A stretch of 64,000 bases of DNA, taken from contig JAFYYR010000029.1 of the NCBI GenBank assembly GCA_017557435.1, positions 186,001 to 250,000 on the forward strand, written 5' to 3'. Position 1 is the first letter of the stretch. The number at the start of each line of letters is the position of its first letter. The stretch is from Pseudobutyrivibrio sp. (lineage in GTDB: Bacteria; Bacillota; Clostridia; Lachnospirales; Lachnospiraceae). The position numbers and the translations under genes were made by a program. The notes under the pieces were generated by a model that was given only the letters and a program-made list of their open reading frames with translations, had not been told where the DNA came from and searched no databases. Below, piece by piece: positions 6,646 through 32,593 of this stretch.

Positions 6646-7695
6646 ATGAATACAAAAGAAGTTAAAATTGGAAATAGAGTAATCGGTGGAGGTAATCCTA
6701 TTCTTATCCAGTCTATGTGTAATACAAAGACTCAGGATGTGGATGCGACAGTTACTCAGATATTAGAGCTTGAAAAGGCAGGTTGCGACATTATTCGTGT
6801 TGCAGTTCCTGATATGGAAGCTGCTAAGGCTCTTTCAGAGATTAAAAAGCAGATTCATATTCCACTTGTTGCAGATATTCATTTTGATTATAGACTTGCC
6901 ATTGCGGCAATTGAAAACGGTGCTGATAAAATTCGTATTAATCCTGGTAACATAGGTAGCATTGATAGAATCAAGGCTGTTGTAGAGGCTGCTAAGGCTA
7001 AAAACATCCCTATTAGAGTTGGTGTTAACTCTGGCTCCTTAGAGAAGGATTTAGTTAAAAAATACGGTGGTGTTACAGCAGAAGGTCTTGTGGAATCAGC
7101 TCTTGATAAAGTTAAAATTATCGAGGATTTAGGCTATGACAATCTGGTTATCAGTATTAAATCATCTGATGTTATGATGTGCGTTAAGGCTCATGAGCTT
7201 ATTGCAGACAAGACTGAGCATCCACTTCATGTAGGTATTACTGAAGCTGGTACTGTCACTGCTGGTAATATTAAAAGTGCCTGTGGTCTTGCAATGATTT
7301 TATCTCAGGGTATTGGAGACACTATTAGAGTATCTCTTACAGGTGCACCTATTGAGGAGATTAAATCAGCAAAGCTTATTTTACGTACACTTGGACTTCG
7401 TAAAGGCGGTATTGAGGTTGTATCTTGCCCAACATGTGGTCGTACTCAGATAGACCTTATTGGACTTGCTAACAAGGTAGAGAACATGGTTGAGGAATTC
7501 TCAGACCTTAATATCAAGGTAGCTGTTATGGGCTGCGTTGTTAATGGCCCTGGAGAGGCTAAGGAAGCAGACTTAGGAGTTGCTGGTGGTATTGGAGAGG
7601 GCCTTCTCATTAAGCACGGCGAGATAGTTAAAAAGCTCCCAGAAGACCAGTTGCTCGATGCCCTTAGAGCAGAGCTTCTGGCATGGCCACGCTAA
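6646..7695 (+). CDS. ispG: 4-hydroxy-3-methylbut-2-enyl diphosphate synthase (flavodoxin type)
   Basis: 349 residues, the short bacterial form. It is an iron-sulfur enzyme of the MEP pathway that converts MEcPP to HMBPP. The N-terminal half is a TIM barrel (NPILIQSMCNT, VADIHFDYRLAI, RINPGNIG). The C-terminal half carries the 4Fe-4S cysteines in VSCPTCGRTQ and VMGCVVNGPGEA plus the conserved Glu. It closes the isoprenoid run; 191 noncoding bases with a large hairpin follow before polC. Confidence 0.97.
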   Translation: MNTKEVKIGNRVIGGGNPILIQSMCNTKTQDVDATVTQILELEKAGCDIIRVAVPDMEAAKALSEIKKQIHIPLVADIHFDYRLAIAAIENGADKIRINPGNIGSIDRIKAVVEAAKAKNIPIRVGVNSGSLEKDLVKKYGGVTAEGLVESALDKVKIIEDLGYDNLVISIKSSDVMMCVKAHELIADKTEHPLHVGITEAGTVTAGNIKSACGLAMILSQGIGDTIRVSLTGAPIEEIKSAKLILRTLGLRKGGIEVVSCPTCGRTQIDLIGLANKVENMVEEFSDLNIKVAVMGCVVNGPGEAKEADLGVAGGIGEGLLIKHGEIVKKLPEDQLLDALRAELLAWPR

Positions 7696-7778
7696 GTTCG
7701 TGGTGGCAGAAAAGCCGTATCTGAAAAGAATACTATTCTTGATGTAAAAATTATTATTTATCTACAAAATTTAAGTGA

Positions 7779-7862
7779 GGCAGTAGTCTGCAAGCTCTTA
7801 GGTTTCCAATCCGAAACGTGTAGTTGAGGATGGAAACTCTAAGGCTTGTAGGCGTAACTGCC
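7779..7862 (+). ncRNA. Long structured hairpin in the polC leader, family unknown
   Basis: The two arms are complementary over nearly their whole length. The pairs are GGCAGT (7779-7784) with ACTGCC (7857-7862), CAAGC (7791-7795) with GCTTG (7844-7848), CTTAG (7797-7801) with CTAAG (7839-7843), and TTTCCA (7803-7808) with TGGAAA (7831-7836). Only small bulges interrupt the stem, and a further TCC/GGA and AAC/GTT pairing occurs in the apex. There is no T run, so it is not a terminator. A weak promoter (TTGATG at 7739, TACAAA at 7763) would start transcripts just before the hairpin. The rest of the ispG-polC gap holds a 15-bp palindrome (7726-7740). The polC ribosome site at 7875 stays outside the stem. 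I do not recognise an RNA family; an RNA-stability or regulatory role is inference. Confidence 0.6.
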
Positions 7863-7886
7863 GGACTTCAACCTGGAGAATGATTT

Positions 7887-10800
7887 ATGGACCAAATGGG
7901 ATTCTTTGAAGTTTTCCCTAATATGAATACGGAGAGTGACTTAAGCACAGCTCTTAGTGATGCCACAATCACTAAGGTAAGTACAGGACGCTCAAAAGAC
8001 GATATTCGTATATACGTTACTTTCAATACATTGATTCCAAAGCGCAGAATCTGGCATTTGGAAAAGTCTATTAAAAAACAGTTTTTCCCAAACAACGGAG
8101 TTACAATTCGTATTTTCGAAGATTTTGACTTGTCTAGTCAGTACACTCCATCCAATTTATTAAGTTCATATAACGATAGTATTTTAGAGGAGCTAGAGGA
8201 GAAAAGTGCTCTTCTTTTTAACATATATAAAAAGGCTGATCTGGATTTTCCAGAGAATGGCCATTTGACTGTTACTATTGAGGATACTTTGATTGGCAAG
8301 GAGAAGGAGCAGGAGCTTCACGATATGCTTTATGCTATTTTAAATAGCCGTTGCCACCTTAATATGCCAATCGATTTTGAATATAAGGCACCTAAAAAGA
8401 GCAAGTACCTTGAGAATGCTCAGATGGAAATCGAAAACAGGATTGCAGCTATCAATGCTCGTACAGCAGGAGCAGGTCAGCAATCCGCCTCAGAAGAAAA
8501 GGAAGAAAAGCCAGCTAAATCAGAGGGCAAGAAATCCAATGAGGAGCCTAAATCAGAGGAGCCTGAGAAGAAATTCGTTAAGCCGCTTACTAAATCTGAT
8601 GACCCAGATATTATCATGGGTAATGAGATAGTTGAAAATGCAACTCCTATGGAGGAGATTACAGGTGAGTTACTTGGACCAATAGTTATTCGTGGTCAGC
8701 TTACAGCTCTTGAGTTTAGGGAGACTAAAAAAGGCGGCTATTTTGGTACTGGTTCCATGACTGATTTTACAGATTCTATTTCTGTTAAGTTTTGGTTTTC
8801 TGATTTGGAACAGGGCAAGGAATTCGAATCTAAATTTAAGGTAGGCGGATTCTATAAGGTATCAGGAAAGCTTGATGATGACCAGTTCTCTAAGGAGCTT
8901 ACTGTAGGTCGTATTAATGCAGTTCAAAAGATCAAGGATTTCAGAGTTGTAAGAACTGATACAGCTGTTGAGAAGCGTGTTGAGCTACATTGCCATACCA
9001 AGATGTCTGAGTTTGATGGTGTATCTGAGATTACATCTATTATTTCTCGTGCAAAGGATTGGGGCCACAAGGCCCTTGCCATTACAGACCACGGTGTTGT
9101 ACAGGCCTTTTGTGATGCAGACCATATGAAGGGCTTAGGAGACTTCAAGGTAATCTATGGTTGCGAGATTTATCTTGTAGATGATACTAAGCTTATTGTT
9201 ACCAATGACAAGGGGCAGAGCCTACAGGATGAGTACGTTGTTTTTGATATTGAGACAACTGGATTTAATCCTAGAAGCTGTAAGATTATCGAGATTGGTG
9301 CTGTAAAGATAGTAAATGGCGAGATAGTAGATAGATTTTCAGAGTTTGTTAATCCTCAGGTACCTATTCCTTATCGTATTACTGAGCTTACATCAATCAA
9401 GGACGAGATGGTTGAAAATGCTCCTACCATTGAGGAGATTTTACCTAGATTTATGGAATTCTGTAAGGGGACAGTGCTTGTTGCTCACAATGCTGGATTT
9501 GATACAGGATTCATTAAGTATAATTGCAAAAAGCTGGGCTTAGACTATGACTATACCCATGTTGATACAGTAGAGGTGGCAAGATATTTGCATCCTCACA
9601 TGGCTAGATTTAATCTTGATGCTGTATGTAAGGCTGAGAACCTTGTTAATGAGCATCATCACAGAGCTGTAGATGATGCAGAGGTTACTGCTAAAATCTG
9701 GAAGAAGTTCATAGAGAAGCTTGAAAATGAAAAGATTTACACGCTTACTGAGCTTAATGACCATAGTAAGCCTGGTCCAGAGCAGATTAAAAAGATGCGT
9801 GCTCACCATTGTATTGTTCTTGCTAAAAATGATTTGGGACGTATCAATTTATATAGACTTGTTTCTGAGTCTCACCTTAATTATTTCTCTAGATATCCTA
9901 GAGTGCCAAAGTCACTTCTTACAGAGTGTAGAGAGGGACTTATAATTGGTTCTGCCTGTGAGGCAGGTGAGTTATATGGAGCTATTGTTGACGGTCGAGA
10001 TGATTCTGAGATAGCCCGTATAGCAAATTACTATGATTATCTTGAGATTCAGCCTGTGGGTAATAATGAATTTATGATTCGCTCAGATAAGTATGAGGAC
10101 ATTAATTCAGTTAAGGATTTACAGGAGATTAATAAGCAAATTGTGGCTCTTGGTGAGGAGTTTAACAAGCCAGTTGTTGCTACTTGTGATGTGCATTTCC
10201 TTGACCCTGAGGACGAGATTTATCGTCGTATTATTATGGCCAACAAGGGCTTTGATGATGCAGACCAGCAGGCACCACTTTACTTACATTCTACTGATGA
10301 GATGCTTGAGGAATTTGCTTATCTTGGACTTGCCAAGTCTCATGAAGTAGTTATTGAAAATACTAATAAAATAGCAGACATGTGCGAGTACATTCACCCG
10401 GTTAGACCTGATAAGTGTCCTCCTGTTATTGAACACTCTGAGGAGGATTTGCGCCGTATATGCGAAACTAGAGCCCATGAAGTATATGGACCAGAGCTTC
10501 CTGAGATTGTTTCTGCGAGACTTGAGCGAGAGCTTAACTCAATCATTGGTAATGGATATTCCGTTATGTACATTATCGCTCAGAAGCTTGTTTGGAAATC
10601 AAATGAAGATGGATACCTTGTAGGTTCCCGTGGTTCCGTAGGTTCATCATTTGCCGCTACTATGGCTGGTATTACAGAGGTTAATCCGCTTCCTCCACAC
10701 TATAGATGTTCTAATTGCTTCTATGTGGATTTTGATGGACCAGAGGTTAAGGAGATTGTTAACCAGGGACTATCTGGTGTTGATATGCCTGATAAGATCT

Positions 10801-20373: not shown

Positions 20374-20391
20374 TTTATTTAAGAATTTAAG

Positions 20392-20419
20392 GAGTCTTGG
20401 TTTGCCAAGGCTCTTTTTT
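20392..20419 (+). terminator. Intrinsic terminator after rplT
   Basis: GAGTCTTGG, loop TTTG and CCAAGGCTC form a 9-bp stem followed by six T. It ends the ribosomal operon. Confidence 0.9.
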
Positions 20420-20628
20420 CTTGCTTTTTTATCAGGTTAGAGAAAAATAAATTCCTGTCTTAAATACGACACATAGATGCAATAAATATGCAATAGAAAG
20501 GTAATATAAAGTCAATATTTAATTTATTAAATGTGAAAATTCTGTGAACAGTGAGATTTCTCAAATAAGAAATGATATAATCCTTTTCGTTGCTTAATAC
20601 ACGGTTACTAGAATTGGGGCATTTACTT
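20420..20628 (+). other. AT-rich intergenic region before the glycan cluster
   Basis: No gene is seen in this stretch. It contains a TATAAT at 20576-20581 without a convincing -35 box, and an inverted repeat ATTTCT/AGAAAT (20556-20573) immediately upstream of it that could be a repressor site. It is probably the promoter region of the accessory cluster that follows. Confidence 0.4.
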
Positions 20629-20907
20629 ATGAGACTAGAATTTAGAGTTCCTGTTATTTTAATTAAAGAAAATGAATTTTTTGTAGGGAGAGTGTCTTCT
20701 TTTGATGCCTCTCTTAGAGATTGTAGTGCGGTTAATTATAGCTTGTTTTTTCAAAAAGCTATTAGCCGCACTTTCTTTTTTTATAAGTATAAGCTTATAT
20801 GTCTAGCGGATTTTTCTAAAATTCGTTTTCCGCCCCAGTTATGGAACCATCTAAAAGAATTAGCTAATAATATATATTTTACTGGCGAAATCCGGCAACT
20901 TTATTAA
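20629..20907 (+). CDS. Hypothetical 92-residue protein
   Basis: Starts MRLEFRVPVILIKENEFFVG; an in-frame TTG at 20590 would add 13 residues. It is rich in Phe, Leu and Tyr, with no signal peptide, clear membrane helix or motif I recognise. The upstream GGGG is a poor ribosome site. It precedes the glycosyltransferase-GH3 gene by 47 bases and lies downstream of a possible -10 box, so it may be the first gene of that unit. Coding status is uncertain; the main support is an open frame of this length in AT-rich DNA. Confidence 0.35.
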   Translation: MRLEFRVPVILIKENEFFVGRVSSFDASLRDCSAVNYSLFFQKAISRTFFFYKYKLICLADFSKIRFPPQLWNHLKELANNIYFTGEIRQLY

Positions 20908-20954: not shown

Positions 20955-23096
20955 ATGAGTAAATTTATTATTTCGGTGATTACACCATTTCATAATGTTG
21001 ATTTTACGATGTTTAATTGCTGCGTACATAGCATGTTGAAGCAGACCATCGGTTTTGAAAATATTGAATGGATTATTGCATTACATAACTGCGATAAGGA
21101 GCATGTAGATTATGCGAAGGAAAAATTATCCAAATATGAAAACGTTATTTTAAAGGAGGTTAACAACGACAGTAGAACACCTTCTAGTCCAAGAAACGTA
21201 GGACTTGATCTTGCAACTTCAGAGTATGTAGCTTTTCTTGATGGAGATGATAAGTTTAGAGAAGATGCCTTGGAGAAAATTATTTATTACTTCAAGAAGA
21301 GCAATTCACAGATACTTGTATTTCGAAGAGAGTTTGAGCTGGAACATCCAGATATGTTAGCTCTTTCTGAGACTGTTACCTGGGATACAACTAGGGAGAT
21401 GATTATCGTGGATATGAAAGATTCAGTTGATAATCGAAATTATAATAGCTTCCCATTTTTCGTTACAAATAGAGCATTTAAAAGAGACTTTTTAAATGAA
21501 AACCATATTAGATTTGATGAGGATATTGATAATGCCGAGGATTGTTATTTCAATCTACAGACAATTCACTTAGCAGATAGTATGTGTTTCTTACCTCAGC
21601 TGATTGGATATACATATTACATTAATTCCAAATCGATCCTAAGTACAGATAAGTCTGATGAAGACATACTTCATATGCTTCGTAATTCCCAGAGAATCAT
21701 TGAAGATGCATTGGATTACGGCTTATATGTTAACAATATTATTCTGGCTCTTGGTTTTGTTATGAGCAGATATCTGGCAGAGCCTAACGTAAAGATGGAG
21801 ACCAGAATGATTGTAAAGGAAACATTTGAGCCATATCTTAAAATGACTACACTTATACCTGCAGGTAGATTTATGGATCCATTTAGAAGCATGATGAACA
21901 TACTTCCATTTGAAATTTTACTTAACACAAAGAGATTTGAAAATCAAAGTTCAATTCAAAATGGCTTTGATGTGTTAGCTGGGATTTTAAAGGAAAATGA
22001 AAATACTCATTTTGGTAGCCGCTATCATTTTGAGGATATTTTATCTATCAGAGGTTTCCAGTCTCAGGTGCCTATCGAAAGCCTTGAAACTTATCAGCCA
22101 ATGGTTGATGCGGAAAAGAGTATTGGCGATATCAACATTTACGCAAGTAAAAAGCCGAGTTGGTATACAAAGCTGATAAATGGAATGTATATGCCTGTTT
22201 CTGAAAAGCAAGCTATAAGTTATGCTGATGCATTTCAAAATGTATTGAAGGGTAACAATATTTTGGTTTTCTCTGAGGCTGACAATCCTATTGTTCGTTT
22301 TAATAATGGAGTACTTGGCAGCACAATTTCGGGTATTACACTAGATGGTTATTACAGAAAATATAGATATACACTTTCTGAGCTTACCAGAAAATTTGTA
22401 ATTCCTCGCGAGATTTACTATCAGATTGATGAAAATGCCGATGACAATCCGGAATTCGAAATGGCAAGAAAATATTTATTTATCCTTATGAGTGTAAAAA
22501 ATAAGGACGTAGATCAAATTGTGCTATTTGGTGCTACGGATTTTAAGAATTTTCAGGATGACATATATAAATTCTTGCCAGAATTGATTGAGGATATTGA
22601 GACCGGTAAATTACACAAGGATTATGGATTTAACGATGCAGTCAAACAGTATTTGGCCCTGCATTTAAAGCGAAATCCTAAAAGAGCAAATGAACTTAGG
22701 GAAATTTATAACACTAAGAAAAATGTAACTCTTACTGATATATGGAAAAAACTAACAGACATTACTCTTATTGATGACCAGCCTACTTCAAACAGTATTG
22801 ATGAATGTTCTGGAATAAAAATTAATAAAGCAATGGTTATGAGCGAGGAAGGCATTATTGGTACCGCTTCAGAAGAGAATGGAAGTTATGTTTTAAACAG
22901 AGACAACAAATTTTACGAGTTCATACATTATAAGGATAATGACTCCCATATTATTTTATCTGATGAATTAAAACCTGGTGATGTTGTACGTCCGGTAATA
23001 ACAAGTGATGCTGGCTTATACAGAGTACCACTTCGTTTTAAGATTAAAATCAGTGATATCGATGATGGAAATATTATTTTTAAGGATTGCGTATAG
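20955..23096 (+). CDS. Family 2 glycosyltransferase fused to a degenerate GH3-like adenylase domain
   Basis: 713 residues, no signal peptide. Residues 1-320 are a GT-A glycosyltransferase: ISVITPFHNV start, then SSPRNVGLDLATSEYVAFLDGDD with the metal-binding acidic motif. From about residue 338 the sequence follows GH3 acyl-acid amido synthetases in order: ILKENENTHFGSRYHFEDI, FQSQVPIESLETY, YLFILMSVKNKDVDQIV, ELIEDIETGKL, IWKKLTDIT, VMSEEGIIGTA, NKFYEFI and GLYR. The ATP motifs are eroded: the Ser/Thr/Gly-rich loop reads SWYTKLINGMYMPVSE (about 401-416), and the YRxGD-type motif after GLYR lacks Gly-Asp. The family's small C-terminal domain is absent. The GH3 part may bind an acyl or amino-acid ligand without adenylating it. 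It heads a run with acyltransferase and exporter genes. The GH3 assignment is from pattern recognition. Confidence 0.78.
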   Translation: MSKFIISVITPFHNVDFTMFNCCVHSMLKQTIGFENIEWIIALHNCDKEHVDYAKEKLSKYENVILKEVNNDSRTPSSPRNVGLDLATSEYVAFLDGDDKFREDALEKIIYYFKKSNSQILVFRREFELEHPDMLALSETVTWDTTREMIIVDMKDSVDNRNYNSFPFFVTNRAFKRDFLNENHIRFDEDIDNAEDCYFNLQTIHLADSMCFLPQLIGYTYYINSKSILSTDKSDEDILHMLRNSQRIIEDALDYGLYVNNIILALGFVMSRYLAEPNVKMETRMIVKETFEPYLKMTTLIPAGRFMDPFRSMMNILPFEILLNTKRFENQSSIQNGFDVLAGILKENENTHFGSRYHFEDILSIRGFQSQVPIESLETYQPMVDAEKSIGDINIYASKKPSWYTKLINGMYMPVSEKQAISYADAFQNVLKGNNILVFSEADNPIVRFNNGVLGSTISGITLDGYYRKYRYTLSELTRKFVIPREIYYQIDENADDNPEFEMARKYLFILMSVKNKDVDQIVLFGATDFKNFQDDIYKFLPELIEDIETGKLHKDYGFNDAVKQYLALHLKRNPKRANELREIYNTKKNVTLTDIWKKLTDITLIDDQPTSNSIDECSGIKINKAMVMSEEGIIGTASEENGSYVLNRDNKFYEFIHYKDNDSHIILSDELKPGDVVRPVITSDAGLYRVPLRFKIKISDIDDGNIIFKDCV

Positions 23097-23116: not shown

Positions 23117-24307
23117 ATGGCAGTTAGAAAAAGATTTGATGCATTACAGACTTTGCGATTTATTTGTTTTTTGATTGTATTTGGTGAACACAGTGGTTTC
23201 TTTAGATTATTAGGCGTGCCTATTTTCTTTGAAATATCCATTATGAGTGTTTTCTTAATGATGTCAGGATTTTTAATGTATTACACATACTCAGAAAGAG
23301 AATTATCATTAAACCCTGTTAAAAATGTTAAATTTTCTTATGGAAGACTTAAAAAGCTTTATCCACTTCATGTGGAAACAGCTTTAATCCAGCTTTTATT
23401 CGTGATAGTTTTCTTTTTTGATTATTTTAAAACTAATCCAGAGGGATTTGGCTATTTTTCATTTAGAGTTGGTATTAATTTGGCTTTATTACAGGCTTGG
23501 TTCCCTAACTTAGAGCAATTTACTTTCTTCTTGAATGGTCCTTCTTGGTTCCTTTCAGTTATGGTTTTTGCTTACTTTATGTTCCCATATGTTGTAAAGC
23601 TTCTTAAGAAGCTTAAGACAGTCAGAAATGGCTTGATTGCTGCAGCCTTATTATTTGCAGTTTCTTTTATAGTAACTGTTGCTATAGGCTCAAAGGTTGG
23701 ATATTTGGATAGCGAATTCTTTATTTGGTTTACAATGAATTCTCCAATAATGAGAACAACTGATTTTATTCTTGGATGTATTATTGGATTTATCTATGTG
23801 GAAAGAAGAAAAACTAATGATGTAGATGCTAAGGCTTATTCAAAAGGATTATGGACTTTCTATGAAATAATGTCCTTCCTCTTATTACAGGTGTTTAGCG
23901 TATTTATTGTAGCTGGTGTTTATTTGATTGGTGGCAATATCGGCATTGCACTTGCATATTGTACAGTAGGCTTGCCATGTTTGATTGGATTGCCTATCTT
24001 ACTTGTTTGTATATACGGTAGAGGTTACATGTCAAAGCTATTCGCCTGGAAGCCACTTGTATATCTTGGTGACATCTCAATGTATACTTACCTGATTCAT
24101 TATATTTATACACAGCTTTGGGCATATCTTCAGGATTATGTATTTGGAATTGATAAATCTGATTCTCGAAATTTCTATATGGTGCCTGTTGAATTTGTAC
24201 TTACTATTATTACTGCAATTCTATATGACAAGTTTAGAAAGAAGAGAGCTGCAGCTGCAAAAGCCCGCATTGCAAGTCCAGTTACAGGTCAAGTTGAAGG
24301 GGCTTAA
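23117..24307 (+). CDS. Acyltransferase family 3 membrane protein
   Basis: 396 residues with about ten hydrophobic helices, as in OafA/YrhL/WecH-type O-acyltransferases. These transfer acetyl or other acyl groups onto sugars of surface glycans across or at the membrane. The N-terminal helix has the family pattern LQTLRFICFLIVFGEH, with the conserved Arg and His. The ATG at 23117 has AAGGAG six bases upstream and is preferred over an in-frame start at 23087 overlapping the previous gene. It ends two bases before the first ABC gene, so it is co-transcribed with the exporter. The acyl donor and acceptor are unknown. Confidence 0.88.
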   Translation: MAVRKRFDALQTLRFICFLIVFGEHSGFFRLLGVPIFFEISIMSVFLMMSGFLMYYTYSERELSLNPVKNVKFSYGRLKKLYPLHVETALIQLLFVIVFFFDYFKTNPEGFGYFSFRVGINLALLQAWFPNLEQFTFFLNGPSWFLSVMVFAYFMFPYVVKLLKKLKTVRNGLIAAALLFAVSFIVTVAIGSKVGYLDSEFFIWFTMNSPIMRTTDFILGCIIGFIYVERRKTNDVDAKAYSKGLWTFYEIMSFLLLQVFSVFIVAGVYLIGGNIGIALAYCTVGLPCLIGLPILLVCIYGRGYMSKLFAWKPLVYLGDISMYTYLIHYIYTQLWAYLQDYVFGIDKSDSRNFYMVPVEFVLTIITAILYDKFRKKRAAAAKARIASPVTGQVEGA

Positions 24308-24309
24308 TA

Positions 24310-26049
24310 ATGAAATTACTAGGAAGTTTTTTGCTTAAGCAAAAAAGGGGATTATTGTTGCTAGTATTTTGTTCAATTGTGGTAGTTGGGCTATCCATGC
24401 TAAATACAAGTTATATAGCTAAAGTGACTGATGATACCTACAGCGTCACAACAGGTGTCATCGGTAAGGATGCCTATTTAAGTAGTCTTACTGATGTAAC
24501 CATTATCATGGTTATTATTATGGTTGCCATGGCAATTTCCAATATTGCAAGTGGTTACTTGGCAGGTAAAATTACCATCTCAATTGCTGAAGAAATTCGC
24601 AATAAAATTTATGATAAGGCTTTGACATTTTCCCTAAAGGAAATGAATGATATTTCTATTCCTTCCATGATAACTAGAAGCACTGGCGATGTTATTTCTA
24701 TTCAAGGAGCCCTGTATTTAACATTGACCACAGCACTTTCAGTTCCATTTTTGATCATTGGTGGAGTGCTTGGTGTGCTTTCGCTGGGAAAAATACTTCT
24801 TGCTTTACTTATATTAGGCGTTGTTCTTGTAATCGGCTTATTTATAGCTCTTGTGATTAAACTAGGTCCCCTATATGGTTCATTTATGAGCCTTATTGAT
24901 GGACTAAGCAAAGTCACAAGAGAAGGTTTGTCAGGAATACAGATTCTTAGAGCTTTAAATCGAGAAAAATGGAACAGCAGTCGTATTTGCAAGACCAGTG
25001 AAGAAATAAAAGATATTTCATTATCTGTAGATATTTCCCAGGCCATAATGCAGCCTTCCATGTATCTTGTGATAAATATCATAGATATTTTGGCAATTTG
25101 GGTTTGTGGTTATTTTTCTGGAAAGGGCCTATTTGAAATAGGAGATATTGTAGCATTTATTAATTATCTCTTTATGACTTTGTCTGGAATAATTATGGGT
25201 GCAATGGTTGGGATTCAGTTGCCAAGCGCAATGATTTGTATGAAAAGAATTAATGAGGTTCTTGAAAAGGAAGTCTCTATTAAGGATGGAAAGGGAGAAG
25301 ATGTTTCTAATTTATCTAATTACGATGTTCGCTTTGATAATGTAAGTTTTAGATATGGTGAGGACTCAGGGATGGTTGTAAGAAATGTTTCTTTTACAGC
25401 TAAGCAGGGAGAACTTACTGTTATTACAGGAAATACAGGCTGTGGAAAGACTACGCTTATGCAGCTTATTCCAAGACTTTATGATGCAACAGAAGGAGTC
25501 ATAACTATCGGTGGCGTAGATGTGAAAGATATGAAATTATCAGACCTTAGGTCACTTATAGGTTATGTTCCACAGCGAGTCTTTCTCCATACTGGGGATG
25601 TTCGCTTTAATATTTCATATAGAGACAAGAACTACAGCGATGAAACTGTTTTAAAATCAGCAGAATTATCTCAGTCATTACTTTTTATTCATGAAAAGGA
25701 AAAGAAATTTAAAGAATGGATTTCTCAGGGAGGAAGCAATTTTTCTGGAGGTCAAAAGCAGCGATTGACTATAGCTAGAGCTTTGTCTGGGTCTCCTAAA
25801 ATATTGATTTTAGATGACAGTGCATCAGCCCTTGATTTGGAGACAGGATTAAAACTAAGAGATAGTCTTTTAAGCATTTTAGATGATATTGCAATTATAT
25901 TTATCACTCAGCGATTATCCATTATTAAAAATGCTGACAAGGTGATTTTAATGAAAGACGGAGAGATTTGCGAAGAGGGGTCATTTAAGGGACTATCGGA
26001 GAATAGTGATACCTTCCGCGAAATAGTGCAATCTCAAATGGGGGCTTAA
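24310..26049 (+). CDS. ABC exporter subunit with degenerate ATP site
   Basis: 579 residues: six membrane helices (1-310) fused to a nucleotide-binding domain, the half-transporter layout. Walker A is GNTGCGKTT (about 374), the Q loop is YVPQRVF, the signature is FSGGQKQRL (about 478) and Walker B is ILILDDSAS (about 498). Two catalytic positions are changed: Asp replaces the Glu after Walker B, and the switch His is Gln (ITQRLS, about 533). Its signature motif is intact. This is the non-catalytic partner pattern of heterodimeric exporters such as TM287/288 or TmrAB. It pairs with the next gene three bases downstream and probably moves a lipid-linked or acylated product outward. Confidence 0.92.
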   Translation: MKLLGSFLLKQKRGLLLLVFCSIVVVGLSMLNTSYIAKVTDDTYSVTTGVIGKDAYLSSLTDVTIIMVIIMVAMAISNIASGYLAGKITISIAEEIRNKIYDKALTFSLKEMNDISIPSMITRSTGDVISIQGALYLTLTTALSVPFLIIGGVLGVLSLGKILLALLILGVVLVIGLFIALVIKLGPLYGSFMSLIDGLSKVTREGLSGIQILRALNREKWNSSRICKTSEEIKDISLSVDISQAIMQPSMYLVINIIDILAIWVCGYFSGKGLFEIGDIVAFINYLFMTLSGIIMGAMVGIQLPSAMICMKRINEVLEKEVSIKDGKGEDVSNLSNYDVRFDNVSFRYGEDSGMVVRNVSFTAKQGELTVITGNTGCGKTTLMQLIPRLYDATEGVITIGGVDVKDMKLSDLRSLIGYVPQRVFLHTGDVRFNISYRDKNYSDETVLKSAELSQSLLFIHEKEKKFKEWISQGGSNFSGGQKQRLTIARALSGSPKILILDDSASALDLETGLKLRDSLLSILDDIAIIFITQRLSIIKNADKVILMKDGEICEEGSFKGLSENSDTFREIVQSQMGA

Positions 26050-26052
26050 GTT

Positions 26053-27810
26053 ATGGTAAACAAAAAAGAAAAACCTATTATAAGACTTTTAAGATTGCTA
26101 GGTAGAGATAGGTTAAAGGTGGCGCTTTCATTTGTTTTTGCTTTCTTTTATTCCATTACCCAAGTGGCAGGACCAGTGTTCTTGGGCCAATCAATTACTG
26201 TGTTTGCAACAGGAATGACAACAGTTCTTGGGGATAAAGGAGCTTTTCCCTATGATGAATTGATTTTTTCTTTAGCTTTATGTGGCGGCTCCTTTGTTTT
26301 GAATTGGCTATTTTTACTTTTGCAGAATTATGTACTTATAAATGTTACTCAAAAAATGGTGTTTAGGCTTAGGCTTGAGATAGCTGAGAAGATATCAAAG
26401 CTTCCTCTTAGCTACTATGAAAGCCATCCTTACGGGGATATTTTATCTACCCTTACTAATGATGTGAATGTTCTTTCAATGAACTTTCGTACATTTTTAA
26501 TTCAGATTGCAGATGCGCCCATCTATCTTATTTTGATGATAGTTGTAATGTTTATTAAGAGCCCTATTCTTGCAGTTGTTGTTATTTTAAGCGTTCCTGT
26601 TAGTGCCATTGCATCAAGAATTGTTCTTTCTAAATCACAGCAATATTTTGATGATCAGCAAGGGGTTCTTGGCGAGCTAAATGGAATTGTGGAGGAAAAC
26701 TATACTGGCTTTGATGTGGTAAAGCTTTTTGGCCACGAAGAAGAGGATAAGGCTTTATTTAGAAAGACAAATAGAAAATTATCTGATGCCAGTGAAAAGG
26801 CTTTGTTTCGTTCCTATTTACTGACTCCAATTGTCACATTGGTAGGTAATATAGCCCATATTGTTGTGCTTATGGTAGGAGCTTTTCTTACTTTTCTTGG
26901 CAAGATTGCAATTGGTGACATTCAGACATTTCTTAATTTTGTAAACAGTATTTCTGAACCAATGAAGCAAATCGCAAGACTTGGAAGCGTCTATCAAAGC
27001 TTTATAGCTGCTGAAAATAGAGTGTTTAATTTTATTGATGAAAAGGAAGAAATAGATATAGAAAATTCCAGTGAAGCTGCTGAGAATTTAAGTGTTTCTT
27101 TTAAAAATATCTCCTTTGGATATTCAAAGGACAAAGTTATTATTAATAATTTTTCCTTTGATGTTAAAGAAGGTGAGCATATTGCTATCGTTGGTCCAAC
27201 AGGTGCAGGCAAAACAACTCTTATCAAACTTTTGATGCGTTTTTATGACGTACTAGAAGGGAAGATTACCCTGGGCAATGTTGCAATCAATGATTTTAAA
27301 AGAGCTGATTTGCATGAAATGATTGGAATTGTTCCACAGGATATATGGTTCTTTGAAGGCTCTATTGCAGACAATCTTAGACTTGGAAGAGCCAATGCTA
27401 CAGATGAAGAATTGCAGCTTGCGCTAGAGGAAGTTGGTGCTGATTATTTTGTAAATCTTTTGCCAAAAGGAATGGATTTTATATTGGCAGAAAATGGTTC
27501 AAATATATCTGCGGGCCAAAGACAGCTACTTGCAATTGCAAGAGCTTTTATAGCAAATCGTCCTATTCTTATTTTGGATGAGGCTACCTCATGTGTTGAT
27601 ACACAGACAGAGAGACGTCTTCAAAAAGCTATGGTCAAGCTTATGGAAGGTAAAACCACTTTTATTATTGCTCATCGTCTTAGCACTATTATCGATGCAG
27701 ATAAAATTTTATATCTACAGGATGGAGATGTTAAGGAACAGGGTACCCATCAGCAATTGATGAACATGGGAGGATTATATAGAAAAATGTTTGATTCCCA
27801 ATATGTATAG
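26053..27810 (+). CDS. ABC exporter subunit with complete catalytic residues
   Basis: 585 residues with six membrane helices and a C-terminal ATPase domain. Walker A is GPTGAGKTT (about 381), the Q loop is GIVPQDIWFF, Walker B is ILILDEATS with the catalytic Glu, and the switch His is in IIAHRLSTI. The signature is weakened to ISAGQRQLL (SAGQ in place of SGGQ). Together with the previous subunit this gives one consensus ATP site (this Walker A/B plus the partner's SGGQ) and one degenerate site. The substrate is not predictable from sequence; the neighbours suggest a glycolipid or acylated glycan. Confidence 0.93.
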   Translation: MVNKKEKPIIRLLRLLGRDRLKVALSFVFAFFYSITQVAGPVFLGQSITVFATGMTTVLGDKGAFPYDELIFSLALCGGSFVLNWLFLLLQNYVLINVTQKMVFRLRLEIAEKISKLPLSYYESHPYGDILSTLTNDVNVLSMNFRTFLIQIADAPIYLILMIVVMFIKSPILAVVVILSVPVSAIASRIVLSKSQQYFDDQQGVLGELNGIVEENYTGFDVVKLFGHEEEDKALFRKTNRKLSDASEKALFRSYLLTPIVTLVGNIAHIVVLMVGAFLTFLGKIAIGDIQTFLNFVNSISEPMKQIARLGSVYQSFIAAENRVFNFIDEKEEIDIENSSEAAENLSVSFKNISFGYSKDKVIINNFSFDVKEGEHIAIVGPTGAGKTTLIKLLMRFYDVLEGKITLGNVAINDFKRADLHEMIGIVPQDIWFFEGSIADNLRLGRANATDEELQLALEEVGADYFVNLLPKGMDFILAENGSNISAGQRQLLAIARAFIANRPILILDEATSCVDTQTERRLQKAMVKLMEGKTTFIIAHRLSTIIDADKILYLQDGDVKEQGTHQQLMNMGGLYRKMFDSQYV

Positions 27811-27850: not shown

Positions 27851-29155
27851 ATGAAATTAGGGGCATCGGATAAGTTTTTTTACTATGTTTTATCTGGTAG
27901 ATCCACAATAGATATTATTTGCGATATGCATTTTAAAGAGGAGTTTGATTTATCAGTAATGAAACAATGTGCTGATGAGGCACTTGAATATATTCCAGAA
28001 TTTAACAAAAGAATAAATGTTAATAATGGCAAACTTGAAGCCAGTGTGGGTTCAGGTGATGTGGCTTTTTTGCCTTATGAAACAGAAAGAATTGTACATT
28101 TTGGTTCAGATGAAACTAATGGGCTGCTGTTTTATTTTTCCTATAAGGATAAGTTCTTGAAATATAGCGGATTCCATGGAGTCTCAGATGGAGCTGGCAC
28201 CGTATCATACATCAAGACTGTGCTTTATCTATATATGCAAAAAATCGGAATGGATATCAGTGATGAAGATCTTGCATACTATACAAGAAATATCAGAACA
28301 AGTAAGCCAACAGCTAGTTATTTAGAGGATGAAAATCTCTACTTGCCTTATGAAAAATACGGAGATTCTTCAGTTAATCCGATTTTTAAGAATAACAATT
28401 TAAATGCTTTTTCAATACCAGAAGTGCCATACGATAATAGCTGCAAGTATACACATATTTGCAAGGCTAAGATTTCCCTGAAGCAGTTCAATGAATTGAA
28501 GGAAAAAACAGGAGTATCTTTACTGCCTTTTGTATCAGATATTGTTTCCATGGCTATTCATAAGCATTTTGATAAGGGAAATGAACCTATTATTTTAATG
28601 TCTGGTGTGGATCAAAGACCTATGTTTAAAGCTGATACATTTGTGAATTGTTCGGATAGCATTTTCCTTTCCTTTTCTAGTGATTTATTTAAGGAAGATG
28701 AAAAGACCCGTTGTCTTCATATAAAAAAGAATATGAAAGACCAGCTTGAGGCAGCGTTTCATGTAAAGCTTGCAGGAGATAGAGCAGAGCTTGTTGAAAG
28801 CTTTGAGGCAGATCCAAATGGAGTGGTTGCTATTGCTGATAAGCTTGCTAATATACCATCTGCTGACAATTTTAATCCTATGACTATGGTTATTACAAAT
28901 ATGGCTGATATAACCATGGGTAATGCGGTTAATGACTTGTTTGAGGATTTCTTAATCTATGATTCGGCACGAGCTAATTACGCTATTTTCTGTTCTTTTG
29001 GAGATTATATGCATTTAATTGTAGGTAATCAAAATGATAGTTCAAAAATTATTGAAAGCATTGTTAGCGAGTTAGGTGACAGAGGTCTAGATGCAGAAAT
29101 TTATAGTGATGAGCACTACTACTCAGATGTGTTTGATTTTGATTTGATAGATTGA
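27851..29155 (+). CDS. Condensation-fold acyltransferase (alcohol-acetyltransferase/PapA-like)
   Basis: 434 residues, no signal peptide or membrane helix. The sequence resembles the chloramphenicol-acetyltransferase-like fold shared by NRPS condensation domains, PapA and alcohol acetyltransferases. HGVSDG at residues 109-114 fits the catalytic HxxxDG motif with general-base His109. A second half with SLKQFNELKEKTGVS and a late FNPMTMVITNMAD segment is consistent with the two-lobed fold. Such enzymes join an acyl-CoA or carrier-bound acyl group to an alcohol or amine. Between an exporter and two glycosyltransferases it probably acylates the sugar product. It has a GGAGG site and lies 40 bases after the exporter. 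The exact reaction is unknown. Confidence 0.72.
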   Translation: MKLGASDKFFYYVLSGRSTIDIICDMHFKEEFDLSVMKQCADEALEYIPEFNKRINVNNGKLEASVGSGDVAFLPYETERIVHFGSDETNGLLFYFSYKDKFLKYSGFHGVSDGAGTVSYIKTVLYLYMQKIGMDISDEDLAYYTRNIRTSKPTASYLEDENLYLPYEKYGDSSVNPIFKNNNLNAFSIPEVPYDNSCKYTHICKAKISLKQFNELKEKTGVSLLPFVSDIVSMAIHKHFDKGNEPIILMSGVDQRPMFKADTFVNCSDSIFLSFSSDLFKEDEKTRCLHIKKNMKDQLEAAFHVKLAGDRAELVESFEADPNGVVAIADKLANIPSADNFNPMTMVITNMADITMGNAVNDLFEDFLIYDSARANYAIFCSFGDYMHLIVGNQNDSSKIIESIVSELGDRGLDAEIYSDEHYYSDVFDFDLID

Positions 29156-29175
29156 ATTTAGGGAGGAGAATAAGT

Positions 29176-30189
29176 ATGAACCCATTTTTTAGCATTTTAA
29201 TTCCAGTGTTTAATCAAGTGGGATTGATGGACCATTGTATTGAAACTATTAAAAATCAGACTTTTAAGGATTTTGAGGTTATCCTAGTTGATGATGGTTC
29301 TACAGATGATTCTTATAATATGTGCCTTGGTTTTTGCATGTCAGATGATAGGTTTAAGGTCTTTAGACATGGGAAAAATGGCTCATTAGTTGCAGCTAGA
29401 TATACAGGTATGAAGGAGTGCAGAGGCAAGTACATCCTTTTTGTAGATAGCGATGACTATTTAGAAACAAATGCTCTTGAATTACTTAAAGATAGTTTAG
29501 AAAAGAATCCTGTAGATATTCTTAGATTTGGATTTATTAAGGAGTTTTCAGATGATATGGAGGGGGGATTTGGTCTTGTTACTGAAAATCAGGAGGTGCC
29601 TCCACTTCATACTAAAGAGCCGCTTCATGCAATGATGACAGACGAATTAGTTCCTAATGTATGGAAAAACTGTTATAGCAGTATAGTAATAAAAGAGGCT
29701 GTAAAAAGAGTTGAGCCATTTTATTGCAATATGGGAGAGGATGTTTTCTGGAGCAGTGTATTCTTTACTTGTGCAAAAAGCGATGGAATCCTGGAAAATT
29801 GCTTATACCATTACATAATTGGCACAGGCATGTCTACCCAGGCTAAAAATCAAAATGTAGAAAAGCTACAAACACATGTAAATAACATAAAGGCTTGTGT
29901 TGATCACATGAGAGAATTTTTTTCCAAATATAATCCTGAGTATTTAGATATGCTTGATGAAAAAGCTATATCTATGTATTGCTTTGTTTTGATTATGTTT
30001 ATGAAGGATGAAAAAGACTATAGAAAGATTGTCGATTATCTAAAGGTATTCGATAAGTCTGGTCTTGAAATGGTATACGACTATGGATGCAACAAGGCTT
30101 TACTTTTCAAATTTAGATTTGAATACAATATTACAGATGAGATGCTTGATGAATTAGGAGTTAAATACGATAAGTTTTCATTGAAATAA
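29176..30189 (+). CDS. Family 2 glycosyltransferase
   Basis: 337 residues from ATG 29176, which has GGGAGGAG upstream (an in-frame start at 29152 overlaps the preceding gene). The GT-A fold shows SILIPVFNQVGLMDHCIE, ILVDDGSTDDS, SLVAARYTGMKE and FVDSDDYLE, the last holding the DxD-type motif. A helical C-terminal part carries NMGEDVFW. It transfers an unidentified nucleotide sugar to a surface glycan or lipid acceptor on the cytoplasmic side. It is clearly a paralogue of the next gene (GEDxFxS, TFKDFEV and VDDGSTD are shared), so the two may add consecutive sugars. Confidence 0.9.
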   Translation: MNPFFSILIPVFNQVGLMDHCIETIKNQTFKDFEVILVDDGSTDDSYNMCLGFCMSDDRFKVFRHGKNGSLVAARYTGMKECRGKYILFVDSDDYLETNALELLKDSLEKNPVDILRFGFIKEFSDDMEGGFGLVTENQEVPPLHTKEPLHAMMTDELVPNVWKNCYSSIVIKEAVKRVEPFYCNMGEDVFWSSVFFTCAKSDGILENCLYHYIIGTGMSTQAKNQNVEKLQTHVNNIKACVDHMREFFSKYNPEYLDMLDEKAISMYCFVLIMFMKDEKDYRKIVDYLKVFDKSGLEMVYDYGCNKALLFKFRFEYNITDEMLDELGVKYDKFSLK

Positions 30190-30199
30190 AGGAGGAGTT

Positions 30200-31177
30200 A
30201 TGTATTTTAGTGTACTTGTTCCTGTTTATAATCAAATGGGAAAAATGGATAAATGTATAGATTCATTATTGATTCAGACTTTTAAGGATTTTGAGGTAAT
30301 TTTTGTTGATGATGGTTCTACAGATGGCTCCTCAGAGTTTTTAGATAAGCTGTGCTCAGAAAATGACAAGTTTTTGGTTTATCATCATGGAAATAATAAG
30401 TCACTAACTGCTGCACGTTTTACAGGAATGGAGCATGCAAATGGAAGTCATATTTTCTTTTTAGATAGTGATGATTTTCTAGAATATACTGCACTTGAAG
30501 ATTTGAAAAATGAGTTCGATAGAAGTAGCGCTGATATAATACGCTTTGGTGTTTTGATGGAGCCTATGGGAGTTACTGTAATGCCTCCTGAGACAGATGA
30601 TTTCTTAACCAGTTTTATGAATGGACATATTCCACCGGCTATTTGGAAAAATGCCTATGATGCTAGAGTTATTAAGGGCGTATTAGATAAGTGCTCATCA
30701 TTTTATTGCAATATGGGAGAGGATAGCTTTTTCTCAACAGTGTTCTTTGGCAACTCAAATAAAGTGATTTCTCTAAACAAGGTACTTTATCATTATGATG
30801 CTTTGTCTGGCATGTCCCAGACTAGCCAGGTTAGCACAATGGCAAAAATGGAAAAGGATTATGAAAGTGCCCATGCATCAGGACAGAATATTCTTCAGTT
30901 TATAAAGAAATATAAGCCTGAATATTTAGACCTTGCCAAAAAGTCAATTCGTCATATGTATAGATACATTCTTTGCCAAAATATTTTATATGCTAAGGAT
31001 TGCTTGGATGTATCTTCTTATCTTAATTTTTTTAAAGATAAAGGCGAGAAATTGGTATATGAATTTGGCTGTAAGGAGCTTATTCCTTATAAGGTAAAGT
31101 TTGACTTAAAGAGAACTGATGAAAGATTTTCTGAAATAGAATTAGAGGATCTATTTACCCTTTTACCAGAAAAATAA
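30200..31177 (+). CDS. Family 2 glycosyltransferase, paralogue of the preceding gene
   Basis: 325 residues. FSVLVPVYNQMGKMDKCID, FVDDGSTDGS, SLTAARFTGMEHANG and FLDSDDFLE define the GT-A catalytic domain. The C-terminal half keeps FYCNMGEDSFFSTVFF, aligned with the upstream copy. Ten bases separate the genes and an AAGGAGG site precedes the ATG. Gene duplication within the cluster is evident from collinear motifs. Donor and acceptor sugars are unknown. galE follows after about 70 bases, suggesting UDP-galactose may be one donor. Confidence 0.9.
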   Translation: MYFSVLVPVYNQMGKMDKCIDSLLIQTFKDFEVIFVDDGSTDGSSEFLDKLCSENDKFLVYHHGNNKSLTAARFTGMEHANGSHIFFLDSDDFLEYTALEDLKNEFDRSSADIIRFGVLMEPMGVTVMPPETDDFLTSFMNGHIPPAIWKNAYDARVIKGVLDKCSSFYCNMGEDSFFSTVFFGNSNKVISLNKVLYHYDALSGMSQTSQVSTMAKMEKDYESAHASGQNILQFIKKYKPEYLDLAKKSIRHMYRYILCQNILYAKDCLDVSSYLNFFKDKGEKLVYEFGCKELIPYKVKFDLKRTDERFSEIELEDLFTLLPEK

Positions 31178-31246: not shown

Positions 31247-32263
31247 ATGGCAATTTTAGTTACAGGTGGAGCCGGCTTCATTGGAAGTCATACTTGTGTT
31301 GAGCTTCAGCAGGCGGGTTACGACGTTGTCGTTTACGATAATCTTTGCAATTCATCTGAAGAATCACTTAAGAGAGTAGAGGCTCTTACAGGTAAAGCAG
31401 TTAAGTTTTACAAGGGTGATATCTTAGACAGAGATAGATTAAATGAAGTATTTGAAAAGGAAGATATTGATTCATGCATTCATTTTGCAGGCCTTAAGGC
31501 AGTAGGCGAGTCAGTTCAGAAGCCTTGGGAGTACTATGAGAACAATATCGCAGGTACACTTACACTTGTTGATGTTATGAGACAACACAATTGCAAGAAT
31601 ATTATTTTCTCATCATCAGCTACTGTTTACGGTGATCCAGCAGAGATTCCTATTACAGAGAATTGTCCAAAGGGTCAGTGTACTAACCCATACGGATGGA
31701 CAAAGTCTATGCTTGAGCAGATTCTTACAGATATCCAGAAGGCAGATAGTGAGTGGAATGTAGTTCTTCTTCGTTATTTCAATCCTATCGGAGCACATCC
31801 ATCAGGCACAATGGGAGAGAATCCAAATGGTATTCCTAACAACTTGATGCCTTATATTACTCAGGTAGCTGTTGGTAAGCTTCCAGAGCTTGGTGTATTT
31901 GGTAATGATTATGATACTCCAGACGGTACTGGCGTACGTGATTACATCCACGTAGTTGACCTTGCTAAGGGTCATGTTAAGGCTCTTAAGAAAATTGAAG
32001 ATAACTCAGGCCTTAGCATTTACAATCTTGGTACAGGGGTAGGCTACTCAGTTCTTGATATCGTTAAGAACTTTGAGGAAGCTAATAATATTAAGATTCC
32101 TTATTCAATCAAGCCACGTCGTGCTGGTGATATTGCCACATGCTACTCAGATGCTACAAAAGCTGAAGAGGAGCTTGGCTGGACTGCAGAGTACGGCATT
32201 AAGGAAATGTGTGCTGATTCTTGGAGATGGCAGAAGAATAATCCAAATGGATATAGCAAATAA
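31247..32263 (+). CDS. galE: UDP-glucose 4-epimerase
   Basis: 338 residues, a short-chain dehydrogenase-type epimerase that interconverts UDP-glucose and UDP-galactose through bound [15 protein letters not shown] is the NAD loop, SSSATVYG carries the catalytic Ser, and [12 protein letters not shown] carries the YxxxK pair. The length is standard. It has a strong AGGAGG site and codon choice like the highly expressed core genes, unlike the AT-rich glycosyltransferases before it. It may supply UDP-Gal to the cluster but may equally serve general metabolism. The upstream gap has TTGATA at 31198 without a clear -10 box. Confidence 0.95.
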
Positions 32264-32466: not shown

Positions 32467-32496
32467 AGCGTCATCGTTAGATGACGCTATTATTTT
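32467..32496 (+). terminator. Intrinsic terminator after tRNA-Glu
   Basis: AGCGTCATC, loop GTTA and GATGACGCT form a perfect 9-bp stem followed by ATTATTTT. Confidence 0.88.
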
Positions 32497-32534: not shown

Positions 32535-32563
32535 AGCTATTGTTGATGAAGAGAACGACTGAG

Positions 32564-32593
32564 GAGAGAGCTAATTGCTCTCTCTTTATTTAT
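32564..32593 (+). promoter_or_regulatory. Terminator-like hairpin in the rimP-nusA leader
   Basis: GAGAGAGC, loop TAATT and GCTCTCTC form a perfect 8-bp stem followed by TTTATTTAT, only about 25 bases downstream of the expected transcription start. A second stem, CAAATG/CATTTG, lies at 32616-32632. This could attenuate the nusA operon, whose products control termination. Regulation is inferred from layout only. Confidence 0.55.

Follow-up and report, generated by a model that had tools for sequence, protein, structure and literature searches.

The GT2-GH3 fusion protein

The window analyzed here, a stretch of 64,000 nucleotides from Pseudobutyrivibrio sp., belongs to a member of a gut-dwelling bacterial family. 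On its forward strand, the open reading frame (ORF) 20955-23096 encodes a 713-residue protein in which a GT2 glycosyltransferase is fused to a domain with the fold of GH3 acyl acid amido synthetases. The protein is composed of three parts.

20955..21659, forward strand: GT2 glycosyltransferase catalytic domain (residues 1-235; Pfam PF00535, 3.9e-14, residues 7-180)
21660..21944, forward strand: helical linker (residues 236-330; within the stretch aligned to RmlT/TarP/TarS)
21945..23093, forward strand: pseudo-GH3 domain (residues 331-713; GH3 N-terminal and middle domains)

The Pfam matches to the GT2, the GH3 N-terminal and the GH3 middle domain each exceed their curated cut-offs. The GH3 N-terminal domain PF03321 is matched in two stretches with 73.2 bits (2.8e-20; cut-off 23.6), and the middle domain PF23571 at residues 645-691 with 34.1 bits (2.9e-8; cut-off 23.6). 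As a lone query against the PDB, residues 331-713 gave only a weak match to GH3.12 (0.18); a profile of 12 family members with the window protein in first place matched plant GH3 enzymes at 4.5e-47. The predicted structure model possesses the GH3 fold and stops at the position of GH3.12 residue 416. The sequence-only reading, which had proposed a GT2-GH3 fusion from the order of GH3 landmarks, is thus borne out by Pfam domains of both families in one ORF, by the presence of the named landmarks in the translation, and by the profile and model matches over the whole segment. The Pfam, PDB-profile and model matches likewise rule out that the segment is not GH3 or that it is an ordinary GT2 tail.

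With the GH3 acyl acid amido synthetases (plant GH3.12/PBS3 and JAR1; PF03321), the window protein has in common the fold, the landmarks and the N-terminal and middle domains; it differs by the loss of motif I and of the motif III Asp, by the missing C-terminal lid, and by the GT2 domain in front. Its resemblance to PaaK-type AMP ligases is clearly weaker. A bacterial GH3-like enzyme, the N-acyl-ornithine synthetase OlsH, is described in PMC12493201, which proposes broader roles for bacterial GH3s in amino lipids. Unlike the window protein, OlsH is 526 residues long and its nucleotide motifs are recognisable; a term search of that paper returned no mention of a glycosyltransferase or a fusion. 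Against the OlsH lyso-ornithine lipid synthetase model NF052613, which has a cut-off of 620 bits, the window protein reaches 16.2 bits.

Domain match and acidic residues place the N-terminal half among the GT2 glycosyltransferases. D96, D98, D99, E195 and D196, presumably with donor-binding or catalytic roles, are invariant across 10 aligned fusions, and D196 is nearly invariant in a separate 12-row alignment. The predicted full-length model matches RmlT, TarP and TarS, glycosyltransferases with a role in wall teichoic acid. Identity to these is only 15-22%, and the GT2-GH3 protein is distinguished from them by its GH3 half, which matches GH3 chains, and by the presence of its family in Prevotella as well.

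Erosion of the ATP motifs and loss of the lid

Reference motifs were taken from PMC12493201 (e.g., motif I of the SSGTSQGRPK type). In the window protein, the S, G, T and K columns of motif I are all gone, the loop being replaced and shortened. Motif II (YGSSE type) reads MVMSEEG, with the Glu retained and the call of the Ser hinging on a one-residue shift, and motif III (GLYRYRLGD type) reads GLYRVPLRF, with GLYR retained and Phe in the Asp column. The C-terminal lid is missing: there is no Pfam match to the lid domain PF23572 in the protein, the model ends at GH3.12 residue 416 as stated above, and the possibility that a lid is encoded just downstream was rejected, since none was found there in the same frame. 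Eroded ATP motifs and a missing small domain, both anticipated from the sequence, are thereby confirmed.

The S, G, T and K of motif I, the S and E of motif II, the R and D of motif III and the K of the lid, nine residues in all, were scored in 44 GH3 proteins from genomes (G numbers) and loci (L numbers), namely 20 fused, two split and 22 without GT2, the latter being 21 stand-alone proteins and one ATP-grasp fusion. L235 was counted as fused from its linker, its contig ending before the GT2 part; the 254-residue fragment L063 and further stand-alone GH3 genes were excluded. GH3s without GT2 keep all nine residues in 21 of 22 cases and eight in the remaining one. Among the 20 fused GH3s, L044, L089 and L233 keep nine of nine and L085 keeps seven; the other 16 keep one to five, the contig-cut L084 being scorable at four residues only. 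The two split GH3s keep four and two, and the copies of the window and of its orthologue G013 two each.

Forty-two columns are conserved in the 22 GH3s without GT2. In 15 eroded fusions, the seven ATP-motif columns among these are kept in 37% of cells and the other 35 in 71% (permutation p 0.014, a guide only, because the rows are related). L341, P414, A578, W597, E655, G687 and R690 are retained in all 15 eroded rows, and the motif III Asp is absent from 14.

In the Fretibacterium fusion L081 (10001-12325), an in-frame TAA is followed by lid-like sequence continuing in frame; recent truncation, recoding or an assembly error are alternative explanations.

Distribution and phylogeny of the fusion

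In a set of 61 genomes that includes the window's own, the protein has a single near-identical orthologue, in G013 (94%), and a single distant relative, in G016 (30% over residues 2-442, aligned over 1-710). Three of 29 genomes of the genus carry a GH3 match. In 397 genomes of the family and 398 of the phylum, at most 3 candidates per genome were scored, so that the following counts are lower bounds. A profile of the fused GH3 domains matches in at least 48 of the 397 family genomes, and at least nine fusion-length genes, all of which also match the GT2 half, occur in at least seven of them (G000, G104 twice, G187, G238, G241, G358 twice, G431). The same fusion is therefore present in other Lachnospiraceae, as the earlier reading had asked. 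G292 holds a split GT2/GH3 pair and G075 a contig-cut member. Among the candidates scored in the phylum genomes, a fusion-length frame is found only in the window genome.

A wider contig scan returned at least 590 stretches and at least 365 relatives, of which the best 80 loci were examined (overlaps with the genome sample: L083 = G104, L086 = G431, L072 = G187). The top 11 comprise eight fused ORFs (L079-L083, L085, L086, L089), the contig-cut fused L084, the Prevotellaceae split pair L087 (6842-8799), whose GT2 and lidless GH3 genes overlap by 4 bases, and L088, a 200-residue GT2 piece beside which, near the contig end, no GH3 is visible. In the other 69, the match is confined to the GT2 half. 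The top 11 derive from Selenomonadaceae, Synergistaceae, Fretibacterium, Prevotella/Prevotellaceae, Bacteroidales, Lachnospiraceae, Eubacterium and Ruminococcaceae. One of them, L086, comes from a strain; the other ten are apparently metagenome-assembled or uncultured. From these sequences, the GT2-GH3 fusion can be regarded as a multi-phylum family in which some members keep the motifs. Transfer between phyla is only suggested, since the pair with 78% protein identity, on a Selenomonadaceae and a Synergistaceae metagenome-assembled contig, could reflect mis-binning.

A tree was calculated from 43 rows and 375 columns, after removal of the motif and lid columns. Fused and split members lie on one side of a branch (support 100/100; recovered in 200 of 200 bootstrap trees), and the window pair groups with Prevotella members (95/88), all of them lidless. 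The intact state (at least seven residues) requires at least three changes, in whichever direction; for the loss of the lid, which was coded by hand, the minimum is four. On this tree, parts of the ligase half would have been lost more than once within the family.

The idea that the domain is always partnered by a motif-keeping GH3 of the same genome was discarded: the window genome contains no other GH3 match, and none was found among the candidates scored in G104, G238, G241 and G431. Such a GH3 is present in G358, G187, G292 and G016.

Selection on the GH3 half

Between the window and G013, the ratio of nonsynonymous to synonymous substitution rates (dN/dS) is 0.027 for GT2 residues 1-235, 0.042 for the linker and 0.029 for the GH3 half. 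Within the latter it rises from 0.009 (residues 331-450, which contain the replaced loop) through 0.037 (451-620) to 0.052 (621-713). For comparison, six operon neighbours have values of 0.061-0.093, the epimerase 0.024, and an upstream gene labelled ppk here 0.013. In the eroded pair L079/L080, the GH3 body is under looser constraint (0.138) than the GT2 half (0.099). For L072/L089, a pair that keeps the motifs, the value of the GH3 body is 0.118, the GT2 dS being saturated. The window GH3 half is, from this one orthologue pair, under strong purifying selection and constrained as tightly as the GT2 half, and that of L079/L080 somewhat less. With catalytic residues lost and the fold kept under selection (one pair, dS ~1.2), it qualifies as a pseudoenzyme, the character that had been proposed for it beforehand.

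Operon and genomic context

The fusion gene is the first of eight closely spaced genes on the same strand, the last of which encodes an epimerase. The seven genes behind it are the following.

23117..24307, forward strand: acyltransferase-3 protein (Pfam PF01757, 4.5e-20)
24310..26049, forward strand: ATP-binding cassette (ABC) exporter half 1 (Pfam PF00005/PF00664)
26053..27810, forward strand: ABC exporter half 2 (Pfam PF00664/PF00005)
27851..29155, forward strand: condensation-like HxxxD protein, candidate acyl or peptidyl transferase (FHxxxDG; condensation profile match)
29152..30189, forward strand: GT2 glycosyltransferase (Pfam PF00535, 7.2e-31)
30200..31177, forward strand: GT2 glycosyltransferase (Pfam PF00535, 1e-29)
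31247..32263, forward strand: NAD-dependent sugar epimerase/dehydratase (Pfam PF16363, PF01370; galE-like is a label given here)

For the acyltransferase, a TTG start at 23087 was predicted; the ATG at 23117, which follows AAGGAG, looks likelier. The best NCBIfam models for ABC half 1 are lipid A and glucan exporters, none of the best 25 of 186 being above cut-off. Terminator-like hairpins lie before the fusion gene (20389-20416) and after the operon (32467-32488, 32560-32588); this evidence is weak, because the regional count of 9 is not clearly higher than that of shuffles (6.5, sd 2.7). A 105-residue ORF directly upstream of the fusion gene (20590-20907, TTG start, no Pfam match) is probably not a gene.

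The HxxxD protein has no Pfam or NCBIfam match, and a profile search of the PDB with it yielded nothing useful. Its H109 and D113 are invariant in seven relatives, for which Pfam gave weak matches only, the nearest in theme being PapA_C at 0.19. Its profile matches five condensation-type sequences of related loci with a probability of 95.4 (E 2e-8); of these five, L072 has a Pfam Condensation match (2.4e-31), and the other four were chosen by BLAST or from their position. When the fused loci, 19 in number, were compared with the window operon by BLAST, nine of them proved to have an HxxxD relative near the fusion (window, G013, G238, G241, G104, G358 [C20; weak, 24% coverage], L234, L081, L084); the window itself is included in this count, and the G104 locus holds two fusions. 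An ABC pair adjoins the fusion in five of the 19 (window, G013, G238, G241, G104); in G016 it lies ~9 kb upstream, with genes of nonribosomal peptide synthetase (NRPS) type between. According to BLAST, NRPS-type or AMP-ligase genes neighbour the members in G187, G016, G075, L081, L084 and the split pair of G292; these were checked by Pfam for L072 (G187) and L081, and by NCBIfam for the G016 protein L075.

The GT2 half was also searched in the 397 family genomes (E-value limit 1e-18, no more than five candidates scored per genome). It was found at at least 13 places in at least eight genomes, nine of them in GH3 fusions and one in the split pair. These ten, nine fusions and one split gene, are the strongest matches, all in or adjoining GH3; the remaining three, weaker at 4e-30 to 1e-23, belong to G187 and are without GH3. 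Read by eye, the latter (L248, L247, L246) stand beside or inside NRPS-like genes: one in frame behind NRPS-like sequence, one between AMP-ligase-like and adenylation-like genes, and the third after a carrier/condensation-like ORF. The search and the G187 neighbours together suggest that this GT2 type tends to accompany amide-forming enzymes.

Possible function of the pseudo-GH3 domain

In GH3 enzymes, an acid is first adenylated and then passed on to an amine while the C-terminal domain swings (PMC11253546). The window protein lacks parts needed for the adenylation step, and the lid for both steps. With no phosphate loop, no motif III Asp and no lid, its GH3 half should no longer adenylate. 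The reading ranked most likely, in which our confidence is evenly balanced, is that of a GT2 enzyme with a pseudo-GH3 half kept to bind a putative acceptor for the GT2, the body of an acyl acid amido synthetase being, as judged from its conservation, retained as a working part. An ancestor would have coupled amide-bond formation with glycosylation. Where erosion set in, the GH3 body would have persisted as a binding site for an acceptor that is acylated or contains an amide and comes from other enzymes; in the window, these are plausibly the condensation-like HxxxD protein and the acyltransferase. The GH3 body would present this acceptor to the GT2 site, and the ABC pair would then export the glycosylated product. 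The fusion, fold, erosion, lid loss and pseudo-enzyme character of the earlier interpretation stand; the recruitment of an acyl group or acceptor, which it also proposed, would fit the operon.

Several points weigh against acceptor binding. A purely structural domain would give the same selection signal, which comes from a single orthologue pair at a dS of ~1.2, near saturation. Conserved columns outside the ATP motifs are also partly lost in eroded fusions, and 10 of the 19 fused loci contain no HxxxD relative in the stretch read, several being short contigs. In the tree, support is below 80 at 10 of 40 inner forks, and the window pair sits on a long branch (1.99).

Ranked second, and rather unlikely in our view, is a structural or oligomerisation role, in which the domain would position the GT2 without binding a small molecule, after the model of the accessory C-terminal domains of some wall-polymer GT2 enzymes. 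For a mere scaffold, however, a whole ligase body has been kept, with the seven conserved residues in 15 of 15 eroded rows, and related GT2s of one genome lie, by eye, beside or inside NRPS-like parts. Because of the conserved ligase-body residues and these neighbours, a substrate-linked role fits somewhat better; the scaffold is compatible with both. Such a role could also consist in ATP-free catalysis, e.g., the second half-reaction, in which an amine would attack an acyl thioester or acyl adenylate delivered by a partner. Much of the scaffold around the ATP site is retained, and several members have condensation-like, NRPS-type or AMP-ligase genes in their vicinity, which would agree with this third-ranked reading. 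It is nevertheless improbable: in plant GH3 enzymes a lid shuts the site for transfer (PMC11253546), and this lid is missing from the window protein; the motif III Asp is lost in 14 of 15 eroded rows. A further reading takes the motif-keeping fusions for bifunctional amide synthetase-glycosyltransferases and the eroded ones for proteins in the course of losing a relic domain; this would explain the three fused members with all nine residues, the four changes needed for lid loss and the L081 stop preceding its lid. We consider it very improbable, since the dN/dS of 0.029 in the window GH3 half, and of 0.009 in its first 120 residues, led us to reject a decaying relic there.

Extending the acceptor-binding reading, we tentatively propose, while holding it to be rather unlikely as a whole, that an amide-ligase fold has turned into an acceptor-recognition module serving an undescribed class of exported glycosylated acyl-amide metabolites of gut bacteria, with the motif-keeping fusions representing ancestral bifunctional amide synthetase-glycosyltransferases. 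Both halves are from known families; no GT2-GH3 protein was found among titles and abstract openings of the open-license papers listed, and the architecture and the loss of ATP residues under selection appear to be undescribed in the literature so searched. The series from motif-keeping to eroded members lets one ask how a ligase becomes a binding domain, and the finding draws attention to an operon for export that includes a condensation-like protein, with a putative glycosylated product.

Other genes at related loci

An 848-residue RimK-type ATP-grasp and GH3 fusion, the GH3 of which keeps all nine residues, is encoded at L074 (2873-5419), where its neighbours are two ABC halves, a stand-alone GH3 and a 2384-residue ORF. 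Related ORFs are located near GT2-GH3 or GH3 genes in L071 (5363-6529), L075 (2537-3730) and L080 (3610-4800); that of L080 has STAS and APH Pfam domains, that of L071 matches NCBIfam antagonist and kinase-like models below cut-off, and that of L075 is related by BLAST. In L079, an ORF at 7045-8799, whose start overlaps the end of the GT2-GH3 gene, joins a MatE transporter to HATPase_c_2.
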